NCBI GenBank assembly: GCA_947490615.1 | Contig: CANLHK010000016.1 | Location: 1-52,394 of the forward strand | Reading direction: 5' to 3' | DNA from: Planctomycetaceae bacterium | GTDB lineage: Bacteria > Planctomycetota > Phycisphaerae > Phycisphaerales > SM1A02 | Length of the DNA: 52,394 nt | In this document: piece after piece, positions 21,380 through 36,529 of the stretch | Numbering within the stretch: the first letter of the stretch is position 1 | How the letters are laid out: each line of letters opens with the position of its first letter | Program-made: the position numbers and the translations under genes | Notes under the pieces: generated by a model | Databases searched by the model: none | What the model was told of the DNA's origin: nothing | Seen by the model: the letters and a program-made list of their open reading frames with translations, nothing else

Positions 21380-22426
21380 TTAGCGACGCCACTCCGTTGG
21401 CACTGCTTCACCCTTGACCAACGCGTAGGAGCGTTCAAGGAGTTCGCGCACACCTTCGCCTGTGGCAGCGGAAATCACCACAGCGGTGTCTTCCTTGCCG
21501 CTGCCCTTACCCAATCCGAGTTCGGTGGAGAGGCGACGAATGCGCTTGGCGCGTTCTTCTTCTGGAACGAGGTCGACCTTCGAGAAGACCACGAGCTCGG
21601 GCTTCTCCGCAAGGATCGGCGAGAACGCGTGAAGCTCCGCGCGGATCATGCGGTAGTTGTCCGCGGGCTTCGAGCCATCCAACGGCGCGAGATCAACGAG
21701 GTGAACGATCGCCTTGGTCCGCTCGATGTGACGCAAGAAGTCATGGCCGAGTCCGGCGCCATCGCTTGCACCTTCGATCAAGCCAGGAATGTCCGCGAGG
21801 ACCACGCGACGATCGCCAGAAAGTTCGGCGATTCCAAGTTGCGGCTTGCGCGTGGTGAAGGGATACGCGCCGACCTTCGCCGTCGCGCGGCTCGTCGCGT
21901 TGAGAAGCGTGGACTTGCCCGCATTGGGAAGCCCAACGAACCCCACATCGGCGATCAATTTCAGTTCGAGTCGAAGCGAACGCTCGACGGCCTCGCCGCC
22001 TGGCGTGCACTCAGTGGGTGACTGATGCGTCGCGCTCTTGAAGCGATCGTTCCCGAGACCGCCCTTTCCACCCTCGGCGACCATGACCCGCTGTCCCTCT
22101 TCGAGAATGTCGGCGACAAACTCATCGGTTGCAGCGTCGCGCACCACGGTGCCAAGCGGCACGCGCACCGTGAGATCGGCGCCATCGCAACCGTGGCACT
22201 TCTTGCGAGCGCCCTTCTCACCAGGCTCTGCGAATCGGTGCGGACGATGCTCAAACTCAATGAGCGTGTCGAGGTGCCCATCGCCTACAAGAAAGACATG
22301 GCCGCCTCGGCCGCCGTCGCCACCATCGGGCCCACCCTTCTGGATGGACTTCTCCTGGCGAAAAGCGACGACGCCGTTGCCGCCGCTTCCGCTTCGAACA
22401 TGGATGATGGCCTCGTCAACGAGCAT
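21380..22426 (-). CDS. obgE: Obg-family GTPase
   Basis: A 348-residue GTPase for late 50S ribosome assembly. The glycine-rich Obg fold occupies ~1-158 (HVRSGSGGNGVVAFRQEK, GGPDGGDGGRGGHVFLVG). The G domain has G1 GLPNAGKST (~residue 165), the switch II/G3 segment DIPGLIEGAS, G4-like SKVD, and SAATGEG. The C-terminal OCT domain is absent, as is common. It lies 148 bp after rpmA, from which a terminator separates it. Confidence 0.95.
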   Translation of the reverse strand: MLVDEAIIHVRSGSGGNGVVAFRQEKSIQKGGPDGGDGGRGGHVFLVGDGHLDTLIEFEHRPHRFAEPGEKGARKKCHGCDGADLTVRVPLGTVVRDAATDEFVADILEEGQRVMVAEGGKGGLGNDRFKSATHQSPTECTPGGEAVERSLRLELKLIADVGFVGLPNAGKSTLLNATSRATAKVGAYPFTTRKPQLGIAELSGDRRVVLADIPGLIEGASDGAGLGHDFLRHIERTKAIVHLVDLAPLDGSKPADNYRMIRAELHAFSPILAEKPELVVFSKVDLVPEEERAKRIRRLSTELGLGKGSGKEDTAVVISAATGEGVRELLERSYALVKGEAVPTEWRR

Positions 22427-23736: not shown

Positions 23737-23757
23737 ATGAAGCCGCAATCTCAATGA
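23737..23757 (+). CDS. Putative six-residue leader peptide overlapping the GNAT start
   Basis: ATG AAG CCG CAA TCT CAA TGA encodes MKPQSQ. The stop codon overlaps the GNAT start codon as ATGA (23754-23757). It lies just after a -10-like hexamer, so it would be translated first from a near-leaderless transcript and couple to the acetyltransferase. Short enough to be chance. Confidence 0.35.
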   Translation: MKPQSQ

Positions 23758-24758
23758 GCACCGCCTTGCGCCCAGTCCAAGTCGTCCGCGCAACGCCTGA
23801 GCGCGCTGAGGAAGCCCTGTCAGCGCTCTTAGCCGCAGGACCCGCTGCCTCCGCGAGATTTGCGCGTCAGGCCGAGGCTGCAAAGATCGCCATCGACCGC
23901 ATGTGGTGTCTCGCAGACCAATACGGCAGCTATCGCATGGCCGTCTTAGCGGTCCCCACCATCGGCCGGACGACCATGCTGCTCGCGTCCCATGCGCGAT
24001 CGAGCCTTGAAGCAGCGAACCTTGGTGGCGCCATCGAGGCGGCTGCGTTGGGGTCCGCCGATACGTCCGACATCGTCCAAGCACTCATCGACCCCGATCG
24101 CACCCACGATCTCGAGGCGTTCGTCGCGGGAGGGCTGCAACGGATCGCGACGCTTGACTACCTCGAGTGCCCGATTCCGCGAGCTGTTGGTTCGCCCTTC
24201 GCGCACCCACCGTCCAATCTTCCGCCTGATTGGACCATCGAACTCGCTTGTGACGCGGCAGTGCTTGCGAGCCCCCACGCCGCCGACCTTCCGCCTGCCG
24301 TGCGTGAAGAGATCATCAGCGTGCTCGATGCGTCGTACCAACTGACACGCGACTGCCCAGGACTCGCGGGCATGCGGCGCACGAGTGATGTCCTCGACGG
24401 ACACTTCGGCATCAGTGCGCGGCCGCGCTTCTGGTTGCTTGCCAAGCAGCATGGTCGCGCGCTCGGCGTGTGCCTCATCAATACGACGACCGAACTTGGG
24501 CAGCGCGAGAACCCCGCAGTTCGGGCCAGCGCAGAGCTCGTGTACCTCGGCATCGCTCCCGCAGCCCGTGGAGCCGGCATCGCCCGCGCCCTGCTCGATC
24601 GAGGACTCCAAGAGTGCGCCCATGCGCGCATCGCGAGCCTGAGTTGCGCCGTGGATGCCACGAATGATCCTGCACGAAAGCTCTACGATTCCACAGGCTT
24701 TCGCATGACCTCGTGCCGCGAAGCGTTGGTTCGATCGCTCTCCACGCGGCGCGCGTGA
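23754..24758 (+). CDS. GNAT-family N-acetyltransferase
   Basis: A 334-residue protein. The C-terminal ~130 residues are a GNAT domain with the acetyl-CoA loop LGIAPAARGAGIARALLDRGL (about residues 260-280, Q/RxxGxG/A type) and the C-terminal ATNDPARKLYDSTGF motif. The N-terminal half may be a second, degenerate GNAT fold. Substrate unknown. ATG 23754 overlaps the leader mini-ORF stop. It is followed by the dnaA upstream region. Confidence 0.75.
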   Translation: MSTALRPVQVVRATPERAEEALSALLAAGPAASARFARQAEAAKIAIDRMWCLADQYGSYRMAVLAVPTIGRTTMLLASHARSSLEAANLGGAIEAAALGSADTSDIVQALIDPDRTHDLEAFVAGGLQRIATLDYLECPIPRAVGSPFAHPPSNLPPDWTIELACDAAVLASPHAADLPPAVREEIISVLDASYQLTRDCPGLAGMRRTSDVLDGHFGISARPRFWLLAKQHGRALGVCLINTTTELGQRENPAVRASAELVYLGIAPAARGAGIARALLDRGLQECAHARIASLSCAVDATNDPARKLYDSTGFRMTSCREALVRSLSTRRA

Positions 24759-25294
24759 TGCAAGACGATGGACGCGCGATGAAGCCGACGGTTCTGCTCG
24801 TTGCGAGCAAGCCGCGCCCACGCTGTCAAGGAGTGCCGCGGTGGACCTGCTAGAAAATTTTTCGCAAGTCGGAACGCCAAAGAAGCTCGCGCGCGATTTA
24901 TCCACAGGATTTCCGCCGAGCACTCCGCGGGTGCTCCTTGATCACGCAAAACGCTTGTTTTGAAGTGTTTCCGTGCGCTTGGCGACACTTCTGCGTGGAG
25001 CTGAGTTGCACGATCGTTGGTGCGCGATAGATTGCCGCCTCCTCGCAAGGACGCGGGACTCGCGGTGCTGCCTCGCGAGGACGGACCGGACGCATTCCAC
25101 GCTGACTCGAGGACCTCGCCACGCACCCCCGCTGGCTCCGATCCAAGAGCAACGCGCGTCCGAGCCGGTTGGGCCATTCCTCTCTTACCAATCCTGACTC
25201 TCGACCAAGCGACCACTCTTGCGCCGCACGCTGTCTCACCCGCAGCACTGCGACGCATCGTTCGCTTCGGACCGTCCTTCGCGGAGTTGTCCAG
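24759..25294. other. Non-coding region upstream of dnaA
   Basis: About 535 bp without a convincing gene. It contains an A/T-rich tract (24851-24864), one perfect DnaA box and a T/G-rich stretch (24950-24971). Only a single box was found by eye, so it is not shown to be an origin; it could be the dnaA control region. Confidence 0.6.
24898..24906 (+). promoter_or_regulatory. DnaA box
   Basis: TTATCCACA, a perfect match to the TTATNCACA consensus, 389 bp before the dnaA start codon. It is likely for dnaA autoregulation or part of an origin. Confidence 0.6.
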
Positions 25295-26932
25295 ATGCAA
25301 GCGATCCCTGCTCCAGCGCCACTGCGCCCACTGACTCGCGCGACAGCGGAGACCACCGAACGACCCCGCGCACAGATCCGCGAAGGGACCGCGACTGGTG
25401 CACACGAGCTGGTGTCGGCGGCGGAGTTCTGCAGACAACTCTCGCAAGCCGTCGGACCGCATCGGTTCGGACTTTGGTTTGAACATGGGACGACCTTCAC
25501 GATCTCCGCCACGAGTGTCGAGATCGTCGCAGCCAACAGTTGTGTCCGCGACTGGATCGTGAAGCACTTTCGCGGACAAGTCGACGGCGTCACGACGGCG
25601 CTCCTCGGTCCCGATGCCGTCTGCGATGTCACGGTGGTGGCGGCGCAAGCGCAAGATCATGGAATGGAGCTCACGAGAGCAAGTGCGGAGCTTCCGATCG
25701 ACGAACCACGCGCTGCCGCACGCGTCGTGGGCAAGTTTGGTTCTGGCCGCAGTGCCGCAACCGAACCGCGCGGCGAAGATTCGCGCCGCGCCCCACGCGA
25801 ACAGTCTGGGCTTTCCGCAGCGTCGGACGATGCACGACGCCGCAGCGCTCCTGCTCCAAACGCGCGCGGGCAGTACTACAGGCGACTCGAAGACTTTGTG
25901 GTTGGCGAGTCCAACCGGCTCGCCTTTGCGGCGAGCCAGCAGATCGGTGAAGGTTCCCGCGAAGCGCCCTCGATCCTGTTCATCCACGGGGAGTGCGGCG
26001 TCGGCAAGACCCATCTCATCCAAGGGATCTGCCGTCGGCGCGCCGAACGATCGCCGCGACAGATCATCAAGTATGTCACGGGTGAGCAATTCACCAACGA
26101 GTACATCGCCTCCGTGCGCGATGGGTCACTTGAGGGCTTCCGCAAACGCCTGCGCCGCGTGGACCTCTTGGCCATCGACGATGTCCACTTCCTCGCCAAC
26201 AAGACGGCTACACAAGCCGAGTTTCTGCACACGATCGACGCGATTGGATTCTGCGGGTCACGGCTGGCGCTTGTGTCGGATGAACACCCCCACCACATTC
26301 GCCGCTTCAGCCAATCGCTGGTCAGCCGCTTCCTCTCGGGCATGATCGTGAAGGTCGATCGGCCTGACCGCGGCACGCGCATCGAACTGGTTCGGCGACT
26401 CGCGCGGGAGCGTGGGCTCGATCTCACCACCGCAGGCGAAGAGGCGGTCGCGGGTCGGTGCACCGGCTCGATTCGGGAGGTCGAAGGTGCCATCACGCGC
26501 CTCGGCGCGCTGGTGGAACTTGACGGCGCACGAGGTCAGATCGGGCCTGGCACGGTTGAGCGGCTCTTCGGCGAAGAGCGCCCCACAAGCGTCGGCGGCG
26601 CTCCGATTCGATTGGTCGTCATCCTTGAATCGGTCTGCGATCGCCTGCGCGTGACGCGCGAAGAGTTGCTCGGGAACGGCCGCCACGCGCGGACCGTCGT
26701 TGCCCGCGGCCTTGTCGCCCACCTGGCCCGCGAGCTCACCACCCACAGTTACCCCGAGATTGCTCGTTCGCTCGGTCGAAACACCCATTCGGCCGTGCAC
26801 ACCGCGGCCAAGCGGCTGCGACTCATGATCGACAGCGATGAGAAAGTTGCGCCAGGCGGCGATTCGGTGCGCGAGGTCGTTGACCAACTCCGTCATGACA
26901 TCGCCCGAACCAACCGCGTCAAGAGCGCGTGA
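25295..26932 (+). CDS. dnaA: Replication initiator DnaA (divergent)
   Basis: A 545-residue protein. Domain I-like region ~45-110 (FCRQLSQAVGPHRFGLWFEHG). A variable linker ends near residue 190. The AAA+ domain has RLEDFVVGESNRLAFAA, Walker A GECGVGKTH (~residue 232; usually GGVGLGKTH), VTGEQFTNEYIASVRDG, and Walker B LLAIDDVHFLA. The C-terminal helix-turn-helix YPEIARSLGRNTHSAVHTA (~residues 485-505) is the DnaA signature position, but E. coli-type RDHTT is replaced by NTHSA. ATG 25295 is chosen as the first start downstream of the non-coding control region that keeps domain I; longer in-frame extensions have no similarity. Confidence 0.88.
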   Translation: MQAIPAPAPLRPLTRATAETTERPRAQIREGTATGAHELVSAAEFCRQLSQAVGPHRFGLWFEHGTTFTISATSVEIVAANSCVRDWIVKHFRGQVDGVTTALLGPDAVCDVTVVAAQAQDHGMELTRASAELPIDEPRAAARVVGKFGSGRSAATEPRGEDSRRAPREQSGLSAASDDARRRSAPAPNARGQYYRRLEDFVVGESNRLAFAASQQIGEGSREAPSILFIHGECGVGKTHLIQGICRRRAERSPRQIIKYVTGEQFTNEYIASVRDGSLEGFRKRLRRVDLLAIDDVHFLANKTATQAEFLHTIDAIGFCGSRLALVSDEHPHHIRRFSQSLVSRFLSGMIVKVDRPDRGTRIELVRRLARERGLDLTTAGEEAVAGRCTGSIREVEGAITRLGALVELDGARGQIGPGTVERLFGEERPTSVGGAPIRLVVILESVCDRLRVTREELLGNGRHARTVVARGLVAHLARELTTHSYPEIARSLGRNTHSAVHTAAKRLRLMIDSDEKVAPGGDSVREVVDQLRHDIARTNRVKSA

Positions 26933-27036: not shown

Positions 27037-28683
27037 ATGCCTCGAGGGATTCGTTGCGCCTCACACACTTGCCCTGCTGCGGCGCTCGCGCTTGCCTGCG
27101 GGGTGTCGTGGGCTTCGGTCGCTCTCGTCAGCGCTGAAGCCCGCGCGCAAACTCCGCCAGCCCCGCCCGTCAATGCGCCGGGCGACTACGACGCGCTTGA
27201 TCGCTTCCAAACCGTCTTGCGCACCTTGAGGGAGGGCGTGCTCGCCGAGAACGACGGCAAGCAGCACGCCACACTCGTTGCGCTGCGGCAGCTGCGCGAC
27301 CCCGCGCTCGCGCCGCTCTTCACACGCCTCTTGCACAGTGAAGACTGGTCGCTTCGTGTCGACGGGTTGTTAGGTCTTGCCGAACTGAGCGATGCTGGGA
27401 AGGCGGACCTCGCGCTCCTCGAGCAACTTCCTGGTGAGTCGGATCGCGAAGCTGGCATCAACGCGGTGTTGGCGCTGCGACTCGCCGACTCGGCGCAAGT
27501 CCAGAGCATGCTCTCGTGGATCGACCTCGCGAGTTCACAGCGGGTACTGCTTGCGGGCGAGTTGCGTCGTCTCGGCGGTACTCCAGAGTTGTCGCTCCTC
27601 ACCCGTCTTGCGAATTCGAAGACCCCCGAAGTGGCGGGCCTCGCGGTTGGAATCTTGCTCGACCTCAAGGCCGCCGAAGCGTCGGCGCTGATGGCCAATG
27701 TTCGCGCGCAGATCGCGGGCCTGCCTGTGGCGACCCGCTCGGCGGTTGTCGCGCAAGTCGCCGAAGCATGCACGGCGCAAAATCTCACTGGCGCAGGCGG
27801 TTTTCTAGCGTCTCTGCTCACGCTTCCTGACCTCGCCGATGACGCGCGCCTGCGCGGCCTCGGCAGTTTGCTCATGCTCTCGCCGAGTGACGCCTACCCC
27901 GTCCTCGCTGCGGCCGTCGAGGCGGATCGTTCCACCGCCGCGTTGATGCGTCACGCCTCCGTGCTGCTCGCAAGCGGAGCGCGCGCCGACGCAACGGAGT
28001 GGGCGCGATTTCGCTCGGTCGATCCGCTGCTCGACTCCATCGCAGATGCGGGCGGCGCCATCGCCGCAGGGGATGAAGCGGGTGCGTTCGAGAAACTCGT
28101 CGCGCTCGAGCGTCGCGTCGTCTTGCGCGCTGCGCTCGATGGTGCTCGTCGCCTTGGACCGAGCGCCGATCGCGCGTTCGGGTTGGCGTGTCTTCGATTC
28201 GTGCTCAAGCCTGGTCCCACGCCACCGGCCCTTTCGGAGACTCTGCTCCTCGCACTCTTCCGACTTGCCGAGTTGGAGCCTGCAGAGTTCCGCGCAGCGC
28301 TTGCGACCGACGACCTCGATGAACCAACCAAAGATGCATTGCTCTTGGCGCTCTTGAACGCGGGCACCCCTGCCGCGGCGGAGGTCGCGCGCACGGCGCA
28401 AGGACATTGTTCGCGCACGGGTGAGGGCCAGATTGCCGTACTCATCGCGCGCAACGAGGCCTCGATCCCACCCGCCGTGCAAGAAGAACTCATGCGCGTG
28501 GCTGGCGGCGGAGTGCAGGTGGTCTTCCCGATTCGCGTGCAGGCGGCTTGGCTGTGGATGCGACATACGGGTCACCTCAACGACGCGATCCAATCGCTTG
28601 CCCCTGAAGCCGTCCCGACAGGAACGGCGCGCCAGGGCGAGACCAAGAAGAGCGTGGAGAAGAGCGTGGAGAAGAAGCAATGA
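27037..28683 (+). CDS. Exported HEAT-repeat-like protein
   Basis: A 548-residue protein with a signal peptide (residues 1-37, ending EARAQ). The mature part is almost entirely short alpha-helical pairs typical of HEAT/ARM-like solenoids (LVALRQLRDPALAPLFTRLL, LRVDGLLGLAELSDAG). The C terminus ends in the short repeat KSVEKSVEKK, from a 12-bp DNA repeat. The start codon follows a TACACT hexamer by 7 nt. Its stop overlaps the next gene's start (ATGA), so the two products are probably made together. Function unknown. Confidence 0.7.
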   Translation: MPRGIRCASHTCPAAALALACGVSWASVALVSAEARAQTPPAPPVNAPGDYDALDRFQTVLRTLREGVLAENDGKQHATLVALRQLRDPALAPLFTRLLHSEDWSLRVDGLLGLAELSDAGKADLALLEQLPGESDREAGINAVLALRLADSAQVQSMLSWIDLASSQRVLLAGELRRLGGTPELSLLTRLANSKTPEVAGLAVGILLDLKAAEASALMANVRAQIAGLPVATRSAVVAQVAEACTAQNLTGAGGFLASLLTLPDLADDARLRGLGSLLMLSPSDAYPVLAAAVEADRSTAALMRHASVLLASGARADATEWARFRSVDPLLDSIADAGGAIAAGDEAGAFEKLVALERRVVLRAALDGARRLGPSADRAFGLACLRFVLKPGPTPPALSETLLLALFRLAELEPAEFRAALATDDLDEPTKDALLLALLNAGTPAAAEVARTAQGHCSRTGEGQIAVLIARNEASIPPAVQEELMRVAGGGVQVVFPIRVQAAWLWMRHTGHLNDAIQSLAPEAVPTGTARQGETKKSVEKSVEKKQ

Positions 28684-29831
28684 GCGAACCAATCTGGCTT
28701 GGTCCACGGCCGCCGACACGCAGCGAGTGGCGTGAAATGCAAGACAGCATCGGCTCATCGCCCGCGGTCTACTCCGCGCTCGAGGAGCGCGTCGAAGGCA
28801 TGGTGGCCGACCTCGTGCAACGGCCGTTTGGTGTGAGTTTCGGTTCGACGGGCGACGCCATCGAAGCAGCACTCGACGCGCTCGGTGCGGGACGCAACAA
28901 CGAGATCGTGATTCCTGCGCTCTGTCCTGCGGTGCTCGGTCCAGCTGCAGTGCGCTGTGGCGCGCGCATTCGCTACGCCGATGTCGACGCCAAGACGCTC
29001 ACGCTGCGCGCGCAGAGTGCCGAGGCGTTTCTGAACAACGACACGCGCGTCATCGTCGGTGTCGCGGCGCACGGTCAGCCTGCGGGACTTGAAGAACTCG
29101 CCGCACTCGCCGCGCGCAACGAATTGCCGCTGCTCGAAGTGCTCTGCGGGGGTCTCGGCGGCAACATCGGGCGCGATCCCGTGGGCCGCTTCGGACGGAT
29201 CGCCGTGGTCGCACTCGGTGGCAGCGAGTCCACCATCGGTTCGGGTGGCGCCGTGTGCGTCACCAACGACGACAGCCTCGACAGCGCGCTGCGCCTGATC
29301 CGCAATCTCGGTCGCCGCGAGCCGAAGTCCGAGTGGGAACGCATCGGTGGTGTGCGCGCTCTCGAACGCATCGGGCTCGACGCGCGCATGAATCCGATGC
29401 AAGCGGCGCTTGCCGAAGTGCGACTCAAGCGCTTCGATGAAACCTGCGCGAAGCTCGAGGATGTCTTTCACGACTACCTTCGCCGCCTTGCGATGCATCC
29501 TGATCTCGTGCTGCCAGCGCCGTGTGCCGATGGAACCGTGCGTTGGTCGCACTTCGCGGTCCGCCTGTCGGAACGATTTGGTCGCGACGACCGCGACTCC
29601 ATCTTGCAAGGACTACTGCGACACGACATCGCGGCGACAAGCATTCTCCATGTTCTCCCCGCCGAACCTGCCTTTGCGCATACCGCCGAGGGCGCCGAGT
29701 TCCGCATCGCGCAACGCGCGGCAGATCGCCTGATCGCGCTGCCCTTCTCGACTGCACTCGCTGAGCGGGACATCGACCTCGTCTGCCAGACGCTTCAGGT
29801 CATGATCGCGCGGCAGACCATCCTGCGCTAG
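28680..29831 (+). CDS. DegT/DnrJ-fold protein without PLP-binding residues
   Basis: A 383-residue protein with the overall layout of DegT/DnrJ/EryC1 sugar aminotransferases: FGVSFGSTGDAIEAALDAL, IVIPALCPAVLGPAA, then the equivalent of EDAAQ... reading LLEVLCGGLGG, then VVALGGSESTIGSGGAVCV. The Asp that contacts PLP nitrogen is Val here, and the lysine that forms the Schiff base is Ser, with no lysine nearby. It is therefore probably a non-catalytic or repurposed fold; residues elsewhere (GLDARMNPMQAALAEVRLKRF) are kept. ATG 28680 overlaps the upstream HEAT gene (ATGA). Ligand and role unknown. Confidence 0.72.
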   Translation: MSEPIWLGPRPPTRSEWREMQDSIGSSPAVYSALEERVEGMVADLVQRPFGVSFGSTGDAIEAALDALGAGRNNEIVIPALCPAVLGPAAVRCGARIRYADVDAKTLTLRAQSAEAFLNNDTRVIVGVAAHGQPAGLEELAALAARNELPLLEVLCGGLGGNIGRDPVGRFGRIAVVALGGSESTIGSGGAVCVTNDDSLDSALRLIRNLGRREPKSEWERIGGVRALERIGLDARMNPMQAALAEVRLKRFDETCAKLEDVFHDYLRRLAMHPDLVLPAPCADGTVRWSHFAVRLSERFGRDDRDSILQGLLRHDIAATSILHVLPAEPAFAHTAEGAEFRIAQRAADRLIALPFSTALAERDIDLVCQTLQVMIARQTILR

Positions 29832-29837
29832 CGGAGG

Positions 29838-31400
29838 CTACTCCCACTCAATCGTTGCGGGCGGCTTCGAACTGATGTCGTACACCACGCGGTTGACGCC
29901 CTTGACCTCATTGATGATCCGATTGGAGATCAACGCCAACACGTCGTAGGGAATGCGCGACCAGTCCGCGGTCATAAAGTCCTGCGTATCGACGGAGCGG
30001 ATCGCCACCGTCGCGTCGTAGGTCCGACCATCACCCATCACGCCGACCGACTTCACGGGCAGGAGCACCGCGAAGACCTGGCTCGTGGAGCGATAGAGAT
30101 TGGCCGCGACGATCTCCTCGAGAAGGATTCGATCGCACTCGCGAAGGACATCGAGTTTCTCCCGTGTGATGTCGCCAATCACGCGCACCGCCAATCCTGG
30201 CCCAGGGAACGGATGACGCCACACGATGTGCTGCGGAAGCCCGAGCACCTCTCCGAGCGCGCGAACTTCATCCTTGAAGAGCAGACGCATCGGTTCGATG
30301 AGCTCAAAGCCAAGTTGCTCAGGCAATCCACCCACATTGTGGTGGAGCTTGATGTTCGCGCTCGTGCCGGCGTGACCGTGTCCACTCTCGATGACATCGG
30401 GATAGAGCGTCCCCTGCGCGAGGAACTTCACATCGCCCGAGATGGACTTCGCTGCTTCCTTGAAGACCTCGATGAATCGATGGCCGATCAGGCGGCGCTT
30501 CTGTTGCGGATCGGTGACGCCTTCGAGCTCGCCAAGGAACGCCTTGCTCGCATCCACGACGCGGAGGTCCACATCAAAGTGACCGCGGAAAGTCGTGTCG
30601 ACGAGGTCGCGCTCGTTTTTGCGAAGCAAACCGTTGTCGACAAAGATGCAGGTGACTTGGTTGCCGATTGCTTTCGAGAGCAACGCCGCCACGACTGAGC
30701 TGTCGACGCCACCCGACAATCCGCAGAGGACTTTGGAGTCGCCGACCCGCTTCTTGATGCGAGCGCACTCCTGCGCGACGAACTCGGCCATGGTCCACGA
30801 CCCCGCGCAGCCGCAAGCCTTGAAGAGGAAGTTTGCGAGCATCTCACCGCCTTGCGGCGTGTGCGTGACCTCGGGGTGGAACTGCACTCCGTACATCTTG
30901 CGCGCGCTGTTGCGCACCGCGGCAAACGGACAGGTCGTCGTGCTGGCCAACACCTCGAATCCCTGCGGGATACGCGTGACCTGATCGCCATGGCTCATCC
31001 AAACGGTGGCGTGCGCATCAACACCAGCGAAGAGATCGGTCGTTTCCTTCACATCGATCTTGGCGCGACCAAACTCGCGATGCGCGCACGACTCGACAAG
31101 CCCGCCGAGCAGGTGACTCATCAACTGCATGCCGTAGCAGATGCCTAGCACGGGAATGCCAAGAGAGAAGAGCGCGGGATCACAGCTCGGTGCTCCCGAC
31201 TCAAAGACACTTGCGGGGCCGCCCGACAAGATGATGCCCTTTGGGGCGATCCGTTGAACTTCCTCGGAGGTGATGCGAGGGCTGACGAGAAGGCTAAAGA
31301 CGCCCGCATCGCGCACGCGGCGCGCAATGAGCTGGGCAGTCTGGCCGCCAAAGTCGAGGATGAGGACCGTTTCGGTTCCGGGCGGTGGGAGCTCAATCAT
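29838..31400 (-). CDS. guaA: GMP synthase (glutamine-hydrolysing)
   Basis: A 520-residue enzyme converting XMP to GMP with ATP and glutamine. The class I glutamine amidotransferase domain has the nucleophile in GICYGMQ (~residue 85) and [10 protein letters not shown]. The ATP-pyrophosphatase domain has [14 protein letters not shown] (~residue 235), and the dimerisation/XMP-binding C terminus ends [15 protein letters not shown] 31400 gives the family's usual N terminus. A TACATT hexamer lies 11 nt upstream. Confidence 0.97.
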
Positions 31401-31455
31401 GAGAGCGGCGGAATGTAGCACCCCGCTGCGCTGACTGCTCCTGCGCGTCGGCGGC

Positions 31456-34655: not shown

Positions 34656-36293
34656 TTACAGCATTTCGCCGTGCGAACCAGTCTCGATCCAGCGCGCATC
34701 CTCGAGTCCGAGGAACAGACTCGTTGAGTCCAGCGCGCGATCAGAGGCCAGCGGAAACGCTGCGGGGCGCCTGACTGTCTCGAAGCAGACGGTCGCATCA
34801 TTGCCGTCAAACTCCTGTTCGTCAGGCAACGCTTCCGTCTGCGCCCGCGCGATCTCGTCGCCAGCATCACGCTGGCTGAAGGTGTCGAACGCGTCGATTT
34901 CGTCACACTCTTCTCTAGAGGGAGCCTCGTCAAAGGATGGCTCGAAGCGACCAGGTTGGTCGGGATCATGAGACGCAGCGCACTCGGCGTCAGTCGTGGC
35001 ACTTCCGCTGTCGACGACGCACGCCTCGTACTGCAGCGCATGCACATCGATGGCCTCGTAGGTCTCGACCTCGCCACGGACGCTGTCGAGCGACTCGGGC
35101 TCGTCCGTTGCGTGAGGCTGGAGCTCCACCGAAAATGTCTCGATCTCGCACTCGGCGATGAGCTCGACGGAACTCATTGGAGGCAATGTTGCCTCCTCCG
35201 CGGCCGGAGGCAGGTCTGAAGGGACGAGTTCGAGCTCGGACTCAAGCTGCCCCAAGTCTTCCACTTGGAGCTGGTCGGGGAGCTGAGCTGAGAGCTCAGT
35301 TGAGAGCTCACCTGAGAGCTCACCTGAGAGCTCGCCTGAGAACTCACCCGTGAGCTCATCCGTGAGCTCATCCGTGAGCTCATCCGTGAGCTCATCCGTG
35401 AGCTCACCCGAGAGCTCACCCGAGAGCTCATCCGCGAGCTCACCTGAGAGCTCACCTGAGAGCTCACCCGAGAGCTCACCCGTGAGCTCATCCGAGAGCT
35501 CATCCGAGAGCTCACCAACGAGCCCCCCCATGAGCCCGCCCGTAAGCTCTTCAATTGGCTCAACTTCCGCCGTACAGGCCGCGTCGGTTGCTGGTATCCC
35601 AGCCGCGGCCACCGCGAGCGGCACCGCGGCGATCGGAACCAGTGTGGCGACCGCAGGGACCTCCGCCACGACCATCGTCGAACCGTCGGCAAGCTCAACC
35701 CGCCCGGCCGGTTCTGTGTCTCGGCGAGCAGCACGCGGCGCGCGAAGGGAGCTCGACGTGAGTGTCGTGGGCGCGAAGAGCATTCCCATGAAGACAAGGA
35801 ACGCCCCAGTCGCGAGGACCCAGAGTCGACGCGGTCCGCTTGCGAGACGTGAAAGCAGCGTGTCGGGGTAAGGCGAGGTCTCGGGAATCTCAATGGTGAC
35901 ACTCGACTCGATCCACTGCGGCACGGTGTTGTTGGCGGTCGGCATCAACAACAACGGGCGTTCATCACGCGGCATCCGATTCAGTTGAGCACGGACCAGT
36001 CGCTCGAGCACACGGGGATCGCTGCTCTCGACATCCGCGAGGAACTGCTCGTACGCAAGCAGTTCCGCCTTGGCGTGCTCTTCGTGCGCTTGGTGCACCT
36101 TGAGTGCCTGATCAAGATCATGCAGCTCGCGCTGTGCAGGGATGAGCACCCCCGACACAATGAGCGCGAGTCCCGCGATAATGAACGGCCACCCTGGATC
36201 GAATCGGAACAACGTGACTGGAGCCGATGGCACAGCCCCGAGCTCACTGCTCGTTCCTTCACGCTGCGAACACGCCTTCGAAACGCCAAACAT
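34656..36293 (-). CDS. Membrane protein with long acidic tetrapeptide-repeat tail
   Basis: A 545-residue protein. Two hydrophobic segments (FIIAGLALIVSGVLI at ~residue 35; LWVLATGAFLVFMGMLF at ~150) flank a charged helical stretch (QALKVHQAHEEHAKAELLAYEQFL...) that resembles the coiled coils of FtsB/DivIC-type proteins, a weak likeness. From about residue 255 some 23 tandem copies of (G/D)EL(S/T) follow, then an acidic tail rich in Glu and Asp. The DNA behind the repeats is a 12-bp unit containing GAGCTC. ATG 36293 is chosen, before the first hydrophobic segment. It is divergent from cheA by 236 bp. Function unknown. Confidence 0.65.
   Translation of the reverse strand: MFGVSKACSQREGTSSELGAVPSAPVTLFRFDPGWPFIIAGLALIVSGVLIPAQRELHDLDQALKVHQAHEEHAKAELLAYEQFLADVESSDPRVLERLVRAQLNRMPRDERPLLLMPTANNTVPQWIESSVTIEIPETSPYPDTLLSRLASGPRRLWVLATGAFLVFMGMLFAPTTLTSSSLRAPRAARRDTEPAGRVELADGSTMVVAEVPAVATLVPIAAVPLAVAAAGIPATDAACTAEVEPIEELTGGLMGGLVGELSDELSDELTGELSGELSGELSGELADELSGELSGELTDELTDELTDELTDELTGEFSGELSGELSGELSTELSAQLPDQLQVEDLGQLESELELVPSDLPPAAEEATLPPMSSVELIAECEIETFSVELQPHATDEPESLDSVRGEVETYEAIDVHALQYEACVVDSGSATTDAECAASHDPDQPGRFEPSFDEAPSREECDEIDAFDTFSQRDAGDEIARAQTEALPDEQEFDGNDATVCFETVRRPAAFPLASDRALDSTSLFLGLEDARWIETGSHGEML
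35283..35530 (-). repeat. 12-bp tandem repeat array inside a coding region
   Basis: About 20 degenerate copies of a 12-bp unit, consensus on the plus strand GAGCTCAYCYGW, each carrying a GAGCTC palindrome. They encode the (G/D)EL(S/T) tetrapeptides. Variation is almost always synonymous or S/T and G/D. Confidence 0.9.
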
Positions 36294-36529
36294 GGAACTG
36301 CGGTTATCGACGCGGGGACATCCGTCGCTGCACATTCCGCGCTGCAAACGAGAGGTCCGGCGTTGCCTTCGCCCCACTCGGGCGATCGCCCCAAACGCCT
36401 CCGTTGCGCCGCGACTTGCACGCCTGCCTTGATTCCAACCAAACCTCCGCCGATGGCAGTAGCGCGCCTCCATTACGGAGTCGCTCCGCGTCAGCGGATG
36501 CATGAAGTCCCCCAACCGAAGGTATCCCG

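Follow-up and report, generated by a model that had tools for sequence, protein, structure and literature searches.

The dnaA-HEAT-degT locus

The stretch of DNA analysed here, called the window below, comprises 52,394 nucleotides (positions 1 to 52,394, forward strand) of contig CANLHK010000016.1 from the Planctomycetaceae bacterium assembly GCA_947490615.1. It carries a run of three genes on the forward strand, encoding DnaA, a HEAT-type all-helical protein and a protein of the DegT family of nucleotide-sugar aminotransferases. This last protein lacks the lysine that forms the Schiff base with pyridoxal 5'-phosphate (PLP) in its active relatives. It is most likely a pseudoenzyme and not the product of a decaying gene, because frames are full and the ratio of nonsynonymous to synonymous substitution (dN/dS, or omega) in close pairs is mostly low. 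The gene, and the codons at the places of the six cofactor contacts, are as follows.

28680 to 29831, + strand: lysine-less DegT-fold protein (pseudo-aminotransferase), 383 amino acids, from the open reading frame (ORF), Pfam and a structural model
28851 to 28853, + strand: Gly58 codon, at the phosphate-binding Thr (lysine-bearing copies: Thr in 44 of 45), from the alignment
28926 to 28928, + strand: Pro83 codon, at the ring-stacking aromatic (lysine-bearing copies: Phe in 45 of 45), from the alignment
29139 to 29141, + strand: Val154 codon, in the position of the PLP-nitrogen Asp, from alignments
29148 to 29150, + strand: Gly157 codon, at the O3' partner (lysine-bearing copies: Glu in 44 of 45), from the alignment
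29223 to 29231, + strand: Ser182-Glu183-Ser184 codons, covering the place of the Schiff-base lysine, from alignments; which of the three is the exact counterpart varies with the gap
29379 to 29381, + strand: Asp234 codon, at the phosphate-binding Asn of the other subunit (lysine-bearing copies: Asn in 44 of 45), from the alignment

The predicted fold is retained

The frame is intact over its 383 residues, and the protein belongs to the DegT/DnrJ/EryC1/StrS family, matching PF01041 over residues 35 to 372 with 166 bits (E 1.8e-48; curated cut-off 19.8). In sequence, the solved structures nearest to it are those of GDP-perosamine synthase (E 1.8e-27) and WbpE. An AlphaFold model, built with a 32-sequence alignment, has a mean predicted local distance difference test score (pLDDT) of 92.4 and a predicted template modelling score of 0.91, and its best solved match is again GDP-perosamine synthase (3bn1; Z 47.1, root-mean-square deviation 2.1 over 364 residues), with ArnB at Z 45. 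The input to structure alignment A2 was 19 of 26 viral loci. The model thus predicts that the fold type I aminotransferase fold is kept, as a preliminary description of this locus had proposed. The protein falls below the equivalog cut-offs of NCBIfam, as do the three lysine-bearing orthologues tried.

The cofactor site is dismantled in the clade of the window protein

The same preliminary description held that the Schiff-base lysine had become Ser and the PLP-nitrogen Asp had become Val. The absence of lysine is borne out, but the exact identity of its replacement is not: the place, matched to Lys185 of WbpE and Lys188 of ArnB, falls opposite Ser182, Glu183 or Ser184 according to gap placement (the loop differs in length by one residue), and none of these is lysine. 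The four lysines that the protein does contain, at positions 105, 216, 250 and 258, all lie outside this loop; they are shared by 12, 6, 1 and 1 of the 15 sequences from the genus, none of them genus-wide. The Val was correctly identified. It is Val154, within the segment PLLEVLC where lysine-bearing orthologues have, for example, PLLEDAC, and it stands where we take the PLP-nitrogen Asp to be (Asp156 of WbpE and Asp160 of ArnB, numbered by counting on the alignments).

As judged from alignment columns, the loss extends further than first noted, to the ring-stacking Phe, the O3' Glu, the phosphate Thr and the second-subunit Asn. The roles of the six columns are those that we presume from ArnB and WbpE; the second-subunit Asn was placed by Asn227 of WbpE, its role likewise presumed; an Asn227 of ArnB does not fit the ArnB sequence. 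Besides the Thr, Phe, Glu and Asn counts listed above, the 45 lysine-bearing copies have Asp in 44 and Lys in 45. The one copy among these with a replaced Asp (L154, genome G048, family f5) has Val at that position. In the clade formed by the genus of the window (g1) and its sister genus (g17), 19 sequences together, all six columns are altered: Thr to Gly or Gln, Phe to Pro, Asp to Ile, Val or Phe, Glu to Gly and Asn to Asp, each in 19 of 19. The lysine itself is present in 0 of 15 g1 and 0 of 4 g17 sequences, its place being taken by Glu, Asp or Ser in 19 of 19 by a gap-dependent reading and, within g1 by an ungapped reading, by Ser, His, Arg, Asp or Asn.

Loss of the lysine need not mean loss of the cofactor. 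ColD, E1 and SpnQ, as described in PMC8987622, have a DegT-type fold in which the lysine is replaced by a catalytic His, and they bind pyridoxamine 5'-phosphate (PMP). They resemble the window protein to that extent, and a non-covalent PLP or PMP enzyme like the 3-dehydrases ColD and E1 would fit the His found at the lysine place (ungapped reading) in four of the 15 g1 sequences (L063 to L066), as well as the Asp that some other lysine-less genera retain. However, those enzymes pair His with PMP, whereas here the residue varies within a single genus, and 19 of 19 sequences of g1 and g17 also have substitutions at the Asp, the ring aromatic, the O3' partner, the phosphate Thr and the second-subunit Asn. 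We consider such an enzyme very improbable overall and reject a ColD-like one for the clade of the window, where the contacts are lost, the lysine-place residue varies and the window protein has Ser or Glu in place of His.

New residues have become conserved, some of them at old cofactor contacts. At least 95% conservation is seen at 88 of 383 positions in g1 and g17, and 17 positions are conserved both there and in the lysine-bearing set with differing residues, among them F83P, F131H, E157G, N234D, F290S and V291H. Pro83, His131, Gly157, Asp234 and His291 are thus new conserved residues that include old cofactor contacts. These could be read as the marks of a new PLP-independent enzyme acting on a related substrate, with the new conserved His, Asp or Glu residues in catalysis or metal binding; the positions of F131H, V291H, N234D and E157G are conserved in both sets but carry new residues in g1 and g17, and the Glu directly before the lost Asp is present in 101 of 101 sequences. 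Against this, we know of no DegT-fold enzyme that works without PLP or PMP, the residue at the lysine place varies within the genus (Ser, His, Arg, Asp or Asn, ungapped), and the meeting of the new residues in one site is an assumption drawn from sequence. We regard a new enzyme as unlikely.

The protein is compared most directly with ArnB, PseC and GDP-perosamine synthase, whose fold it shares over nearly its whole length. A lysine-bearing orthologue from the same locus (genome G034) matches ArnB at 8.9e-59 and has the full PLP site. The window protein differs from all three enzymes in lacking both residues expected of a nucleotide-sugar aminotransferase, the Schiff-base lysine and the PLP-nitrogen Asp (Val154), as well as the other contacts tested, so that aminotransferase chemistry would not be expected of it.

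Orthologues with and without the lysine share one locus

At E 1e-40 the window protein is matched, nearly always once, in 155 of 181 genomes from its own family (94 of the 104 high-quality ones). The 101 sequences compared here are that of the window, 80 of the 155 matches with flanks, genome G018 and 19 sister-family genomes, 82 of them thus lying in the family; for one genome the longer L153 was used instead of L038. Lysine is present in 45 of the 101, namely 19 of 19 sister-family and 26 of 82 family sequences. The remaining 56 of the 82 lack it, including 15 of 15 from the genus of the window. By genus within the family, 21 are lysine-bearing and 21 lysine-less, with none mixed among those read, and ten further genomes of lysine-less genera are lysine-less in 10 of 10 cases. 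When 11 genomes, ten of them with no 1e-40 match, were searched again, eight from genera g57 and g44 proved to hold a diverged copy, lysine-less in all eight, and G011 (80% complete) gave distant paralogues alone. Two records titled Candidatus Kuenenia stuttgartiensis (L042 and L047) match g1 contigs (G001 and G009), with DegT identities of 67% and 81%; their titles look wrong.

The neighbouring genes in the window that mark this locus are:

21380 to 22426, - strand: obgE, marker of the conserved block
23754 to 24758, + strand: GNAT acetyltransferase gene, part of the conserved block
25169 to 26932, + strand: dnaA, first gene of the dnaA-HEAT-degT run, from Pfam Bac_DnaA and synteny; start codon uncertain
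27037 to 28683, + strand: HEAT-type all-helical protein whose N-terminus resembles a signal peptide; stop codon overlapping the start codon of DegT (ATGA)
29838 to 31421, - strand: guaA (GMP synthase), convergent neighbour

Among 20 wide loci and the window, dnaA is a neighbour in 18 of 21, and obgE, the gene adjoining it (which, by eye, we take to be rpmA, encoding L27) and the GNAT gene in 16 each. At the wide loci of G049 (family f6) and G054 (f2), dnaA, obgE, L27 and GNAT neighbours were all not found. Of the 101 short loci, 91 have dnaA; it was not found in five of five f6 loci, in G058 (f2), in g40, in g53 or in two cut-off loci. The obgE, GNAT and dnaA neighbours are common to lysine-bearing and lysine-less genera, and since the locus is therefore the same in both, the window gene and its relatives are true syntenic orthologues (obgE, GNAT, dnaA, HEAT, degT).

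A single perfect DnaA-box-like site, TTATCCACA, lies at 24898-24906, upstream of dnaA (expected number 0.03). No switch in GC (guanine-cytosine) skew was found in the window using 4-kb windows, and with this and the single TTATCCACA a replication origin at the locus was set aside. Elsewhere in the window, an ORF on the - strand at 34656-36515 has a long acidic repeated stretch (ELSGELSGELADELSGEL...), and another on the + strand begins with a short peptide repeat (MAKADMAKADMAKADMAD) at 2410-2460, likely a tandem repeat of the start region.

Pseudo-subunits of PLP enzymes are known: LCB1/SPTLC1 are lysine-less fold type I proteins kept by selection that need an active partner. By analogy with these subunits of serine palmitoyltransferase, the lysine-less protein might be a dead subunit that completes the active site of an active DegT paralogue. 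At least one other strong DegT match occurs in 41 of 43 lysine-less genomes, that of the window included (absence of the lysine was read directly in all 43), and in related dehydratases a loop of the second subunit completes the active site, as PMC8987622 describes. But the second-subunit Asn that contacts the phosphate has been lost as well, paralogues in congeners are 23-29% identical among the matches listed, and two genomes (G064 and G070, 94% and 92% complete, so that their assemblies may have missed a partner) hold no other DegT match at E 1e-30, in contrast to the need of LCB1/SPTLC1 for a partner. A dead subunit is thus improbable. MocR regulators are a further parallel, in that an aminotransferase fold is used for sensing; they differ in carrying a fused DNA-binding domain, which is missing here, and as a rule MocR proteins keep PLP binding.

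Lysine-less forms in other genera

Erosion of the site takes several forms. In genera g14 and g7 (six sequences) all six columns are altered, and a clade of 16 sequences in which the lysine has become Arg has five of six altered: Lys to Arg, Asp to Asn or His, Asn to Asp and Thr to Gly, Ala or Ser in all 16, with the Glu retained in 16. The ring change in this clade is mostly the mild one of Phe to Tyr (eight, with one to His). The columns of the PLP site were compared by Fisher tests, leaving out genus g3, with the rest of the 106 columns that are at least 95% conserved in lysine-bearing copies (six PLP columns and 100 others). Changes number 6 against 44 in g14 and g7 (p 0.0093), 5 against 16 in the Arg clade (p 0.001), 5 against 23 in g50 (p 0.0047), 5 against 37 in g58 (p 0.035) and 4 against 19 in g19 (p 0.019).

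Two further cases stand at the extremes. The single genome of genus g40 (L089, G061) retains Lys and Asp with the phosphate Thr, O3' Glu and second-subunit Asn already altered, and is possibly an intermediate form. The most eroded copies, L213 to L215 of genus g44, are missing the second-subunit Asn segment in the alignment, and each has a HEAT-type match beside it.

The lysine has probably been lost about three times

Trees were built quickly for DegT, with the active-site columns removed, and for DnaA, and with FastTree for the HEAT-type protein. The DnaA tree has 89 of the 101 rows (ten loci lack a dnaA match, the flank being short in at least two of these cases, and two sequences were too short), and the HEAT tree has 91 of 99 upstream ORFs, eight being unlinked by BLAST at 1e-6 and two of the 101 loci having no upstream ORF. 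The fewest changes of lysine state are three on the DegT tree, three on the DnaA tree and four on the HEAT tree, and starred branches force at least two in each. Genus g58 falls within the large lysine-less clade, on a long branch, in the DegT tree, and beside the lysine-bearing g5 and g8 in the other two; there g58 and g19 lie among lysine-bearing genera, away from most lysine-less rows. In the HEAT tree the large lysine-less group does not form a single clade; g3 adjoins a mainly lysine-bearing group, which may reflect a further loss or an error. The best reading is that the lysine was lost about three times, two to four being possible.

Selection and rate of change

Omega was computed by the NG86 method for the closest pair in each of 12 of the 14 lysine-less genera with at least two sequences (g19 and g55 were not computable). 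In seven genera it is 0.033 (g1), 0.041 (g41), 0.053 (g14), 0.055 (g56), 0.056 (g18), 0.063 (g17) and 0.066 (g58), compared with 0.035 to 0.212 in lysine-bearing sets; these values are rough, dS being greater than 1 in many pairs and synonymous sites near saturation in several.

The DegT protein has changed quickly. Its distance from the family ancestor has a median of 0.48 in lysine-bearing copies (n=26, range 0.35-1.40), compared with genus means of 1.17-2.64 in lysine-less genera, g1 having the highest at 2.64. The corresponding figures for DnaA are 1.12 (n=20) in lysine-bearing copies, 1.14 in g1 and 0.95-2.73 in lysine-less genera, and for the HEAT-type protein 1.67 (n=22), 1.88 and 1.33-2.39. 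In g1, therefore, DegT is accelerated and DnaA and HEAT are not; the contrast is smaller elsewhere.

Fast divergence after the loss, together with the g44 copies that have no second-subunit Asn segment and the two genomes, G097 and G075, that have no orthologue, is what a gene decaying after loss of function would give. Such decay is largely refuted, and highly improbable, in view of the absence of stops within the listed DegT matches, where lysine-less frames are full, the E 1e-40 match in 155 of 181 family genomes and the omegas of 0.03-0.07 in the closest pairs of seven lysine-less genera. A pseudogene is likewise rejected, frames being intact and omega well under 1 in all 12 lysine-less genera computed.

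The HEAT-type neighbour

The HEAT-type ORF was described beforehand as an exported HEAT-repeat protein coupled to the DegT gene by ATGA. The overlap is confirmed, and an all-helical model (pLDDT 86.5; 30 helices, the first of them in a low-confidence N-terminus) and a signal-peptide-like start, within a first 52 residues of low confidence, agree with the description. A HEAT profile above its cut-off was not obtained: the window protein has no Pfam match at E up to 1, the sister-family relative L145 reaches 22.7 bits with HEAT_2, whose cut-off is 27.7, and the relative L105 has no such match. The best PDB matches of the model are HEAT/ARM solenoids, at a weak level (best E 4e-3, none at 0.001). 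A signal-peptide-like start is found in 86 of 99 upstream proteins by a crude home-made rule, which is no trained predictor and gives false positives; the same rule finds none in the DegT protein.

It had been proposed that the lost PLP residues and this neighbour point to a repurposed binding or scaffold role. As a scaffold, the DegT protein might act in concert with the upstream HEAT-repeat protein. The overlap in 14 of 15 g1 sequences (window included), a HEAT-type ORF upstream at 91 of 99 loci that have an upstream ORF, and a partial correlation between the distances of DegT and HEAT, with DnaA controlled for, of 0.65 across 18 lysine-less genera and 0.58 across 14 g1 sequences (six rows with short dnaA pieces left out; one row per genus save in the g1 test) are in favour of such a scaffold. 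However, the ORF stands upstream of 35 of 45 lysine-bearing as well as 56 of 56 lysine-less copies, so it does not mark the lysine-less state. The ten loci where no HEAT link is made are five of families f2 and f3 with L119, L136 and L140, whose upstream ORFs are unlinked by BLAST, and L090 (at a contig end) and L155, with no upstream ORF. Because the gene also stands beside most lysine-bearing copies, the two genes were paired before the lysine was lost, and the pairing is no marker of repurposing. Outside the genus the ATGA overlap is less common (26 of 99 loci with an upstream ORF in all), and the correlation is weak evidence, with DnaA near-uncorrelated with both in the lysine-less set (0.02 and 0.09) and a value of 0.44 in lysine-bearing copies too. 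HEAT distance is little raised by the loss (g1 1.88 against 1.67). Further, as HEAT looks export-like and DegT has no signal-like start, the two products should part company and would be expected in separate places, which argues against a direct scaffold. We consider a scaffold quite improbable; a place in one gene run with dnaA and HEAT may serve expression alone.

Interpretation

We conclude, with a probability of roughly 0.6, that the window protein is a selected, PLP-free pseudoenzyme with a binding role; for any given ligand our confidence is much lower. The earlier suggestion of a repurposed role is upheld as far as loss of PLP chemistry and a selected non-enzymatic function are concerned (56 of 82 family sequences lysine-less, low dN/dS, new conserved residues), and binding is plausible. 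The gene would have descended in place, vertically at the same locus, from one for an ArnB/PseC-like nucleotide-sugar aminotransferase encoded behind dnaA. All six tested cofactor contacts have changed in the clade of the window, with a fold that is kept by prediction and an open frame retained under purifying selection. The product is probably still a cytosolic dimer whose remodelled pocket may bind a small ligand, which could still be a nucleotide sugar, and it might act as a sensor or allosteric partner in place of an aminotransferase.

Several observations weigh against this conclusion. In g1 and g17 the PLP site is singled out only modestly, because 50 of the 100 other conserved columns have changed as well as 6 of 6 PLP columns (Fisher p 0.019), and the excess is non-significant in g61 (5 against 47, p 0.094) and in g43 and g56 (4 against 43, p 0.24). 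The Asp is retained in g19, g43, g56, g58 and g61. Omega is higher in five lysine-less genera, at 0.140 (g7), 0.204 (g50 and g60), 0.273 (g43) and 0.353 (g61), and DnaA is also on long branches in the lysine-less g2, g6, g19 and g41. No orthologue was found in G097 (genus g43, 95% complete), which holds only distant paralogues, or in G075 (genus g41, 90%), which gave nothing; these are possibly true losses, implying that a lysine-less gene can be lost. That His131 and His291 line the pocket is suggested by their sequence position, and ligand binding and the dimer state are likewise proposals.

A broader idea, which we hold to be doubtful, is that lysine-bearing and lysine-less forms have a second, non-enzymatic task in common, so that the job of the gene was never aminotransfer alone. 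Such a task might be, for example, to report the supply of cell-envelope sugars to replication or growth. With the gene lying behind dnaA, a link to growth or replication can be tested directly.

PLP-fold pseudoenzymes are known. Apart from the His-type PMP dehydrases, our searches of an open-licence library found no report of a lysine-less DegT clade, and PMC9309667 has no mention of DegT. The present locus holds both an enzyme and its disarmed descendants, at one syntenic position in 21 lysine-bearing and 21 lysine-less genera of one bacterial family, with g40 as a possible intermediate. This natural series bears on the way in which an enzyme turns into a binding protein and on what the gene is kept for. 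For the DegT genes of these planctomycetes, the family name alone is insufficient for annotation as an aminotransferase. If a shared second task does exist, it would have let the activity drop about three times while the gene stayed put across some forty genera.

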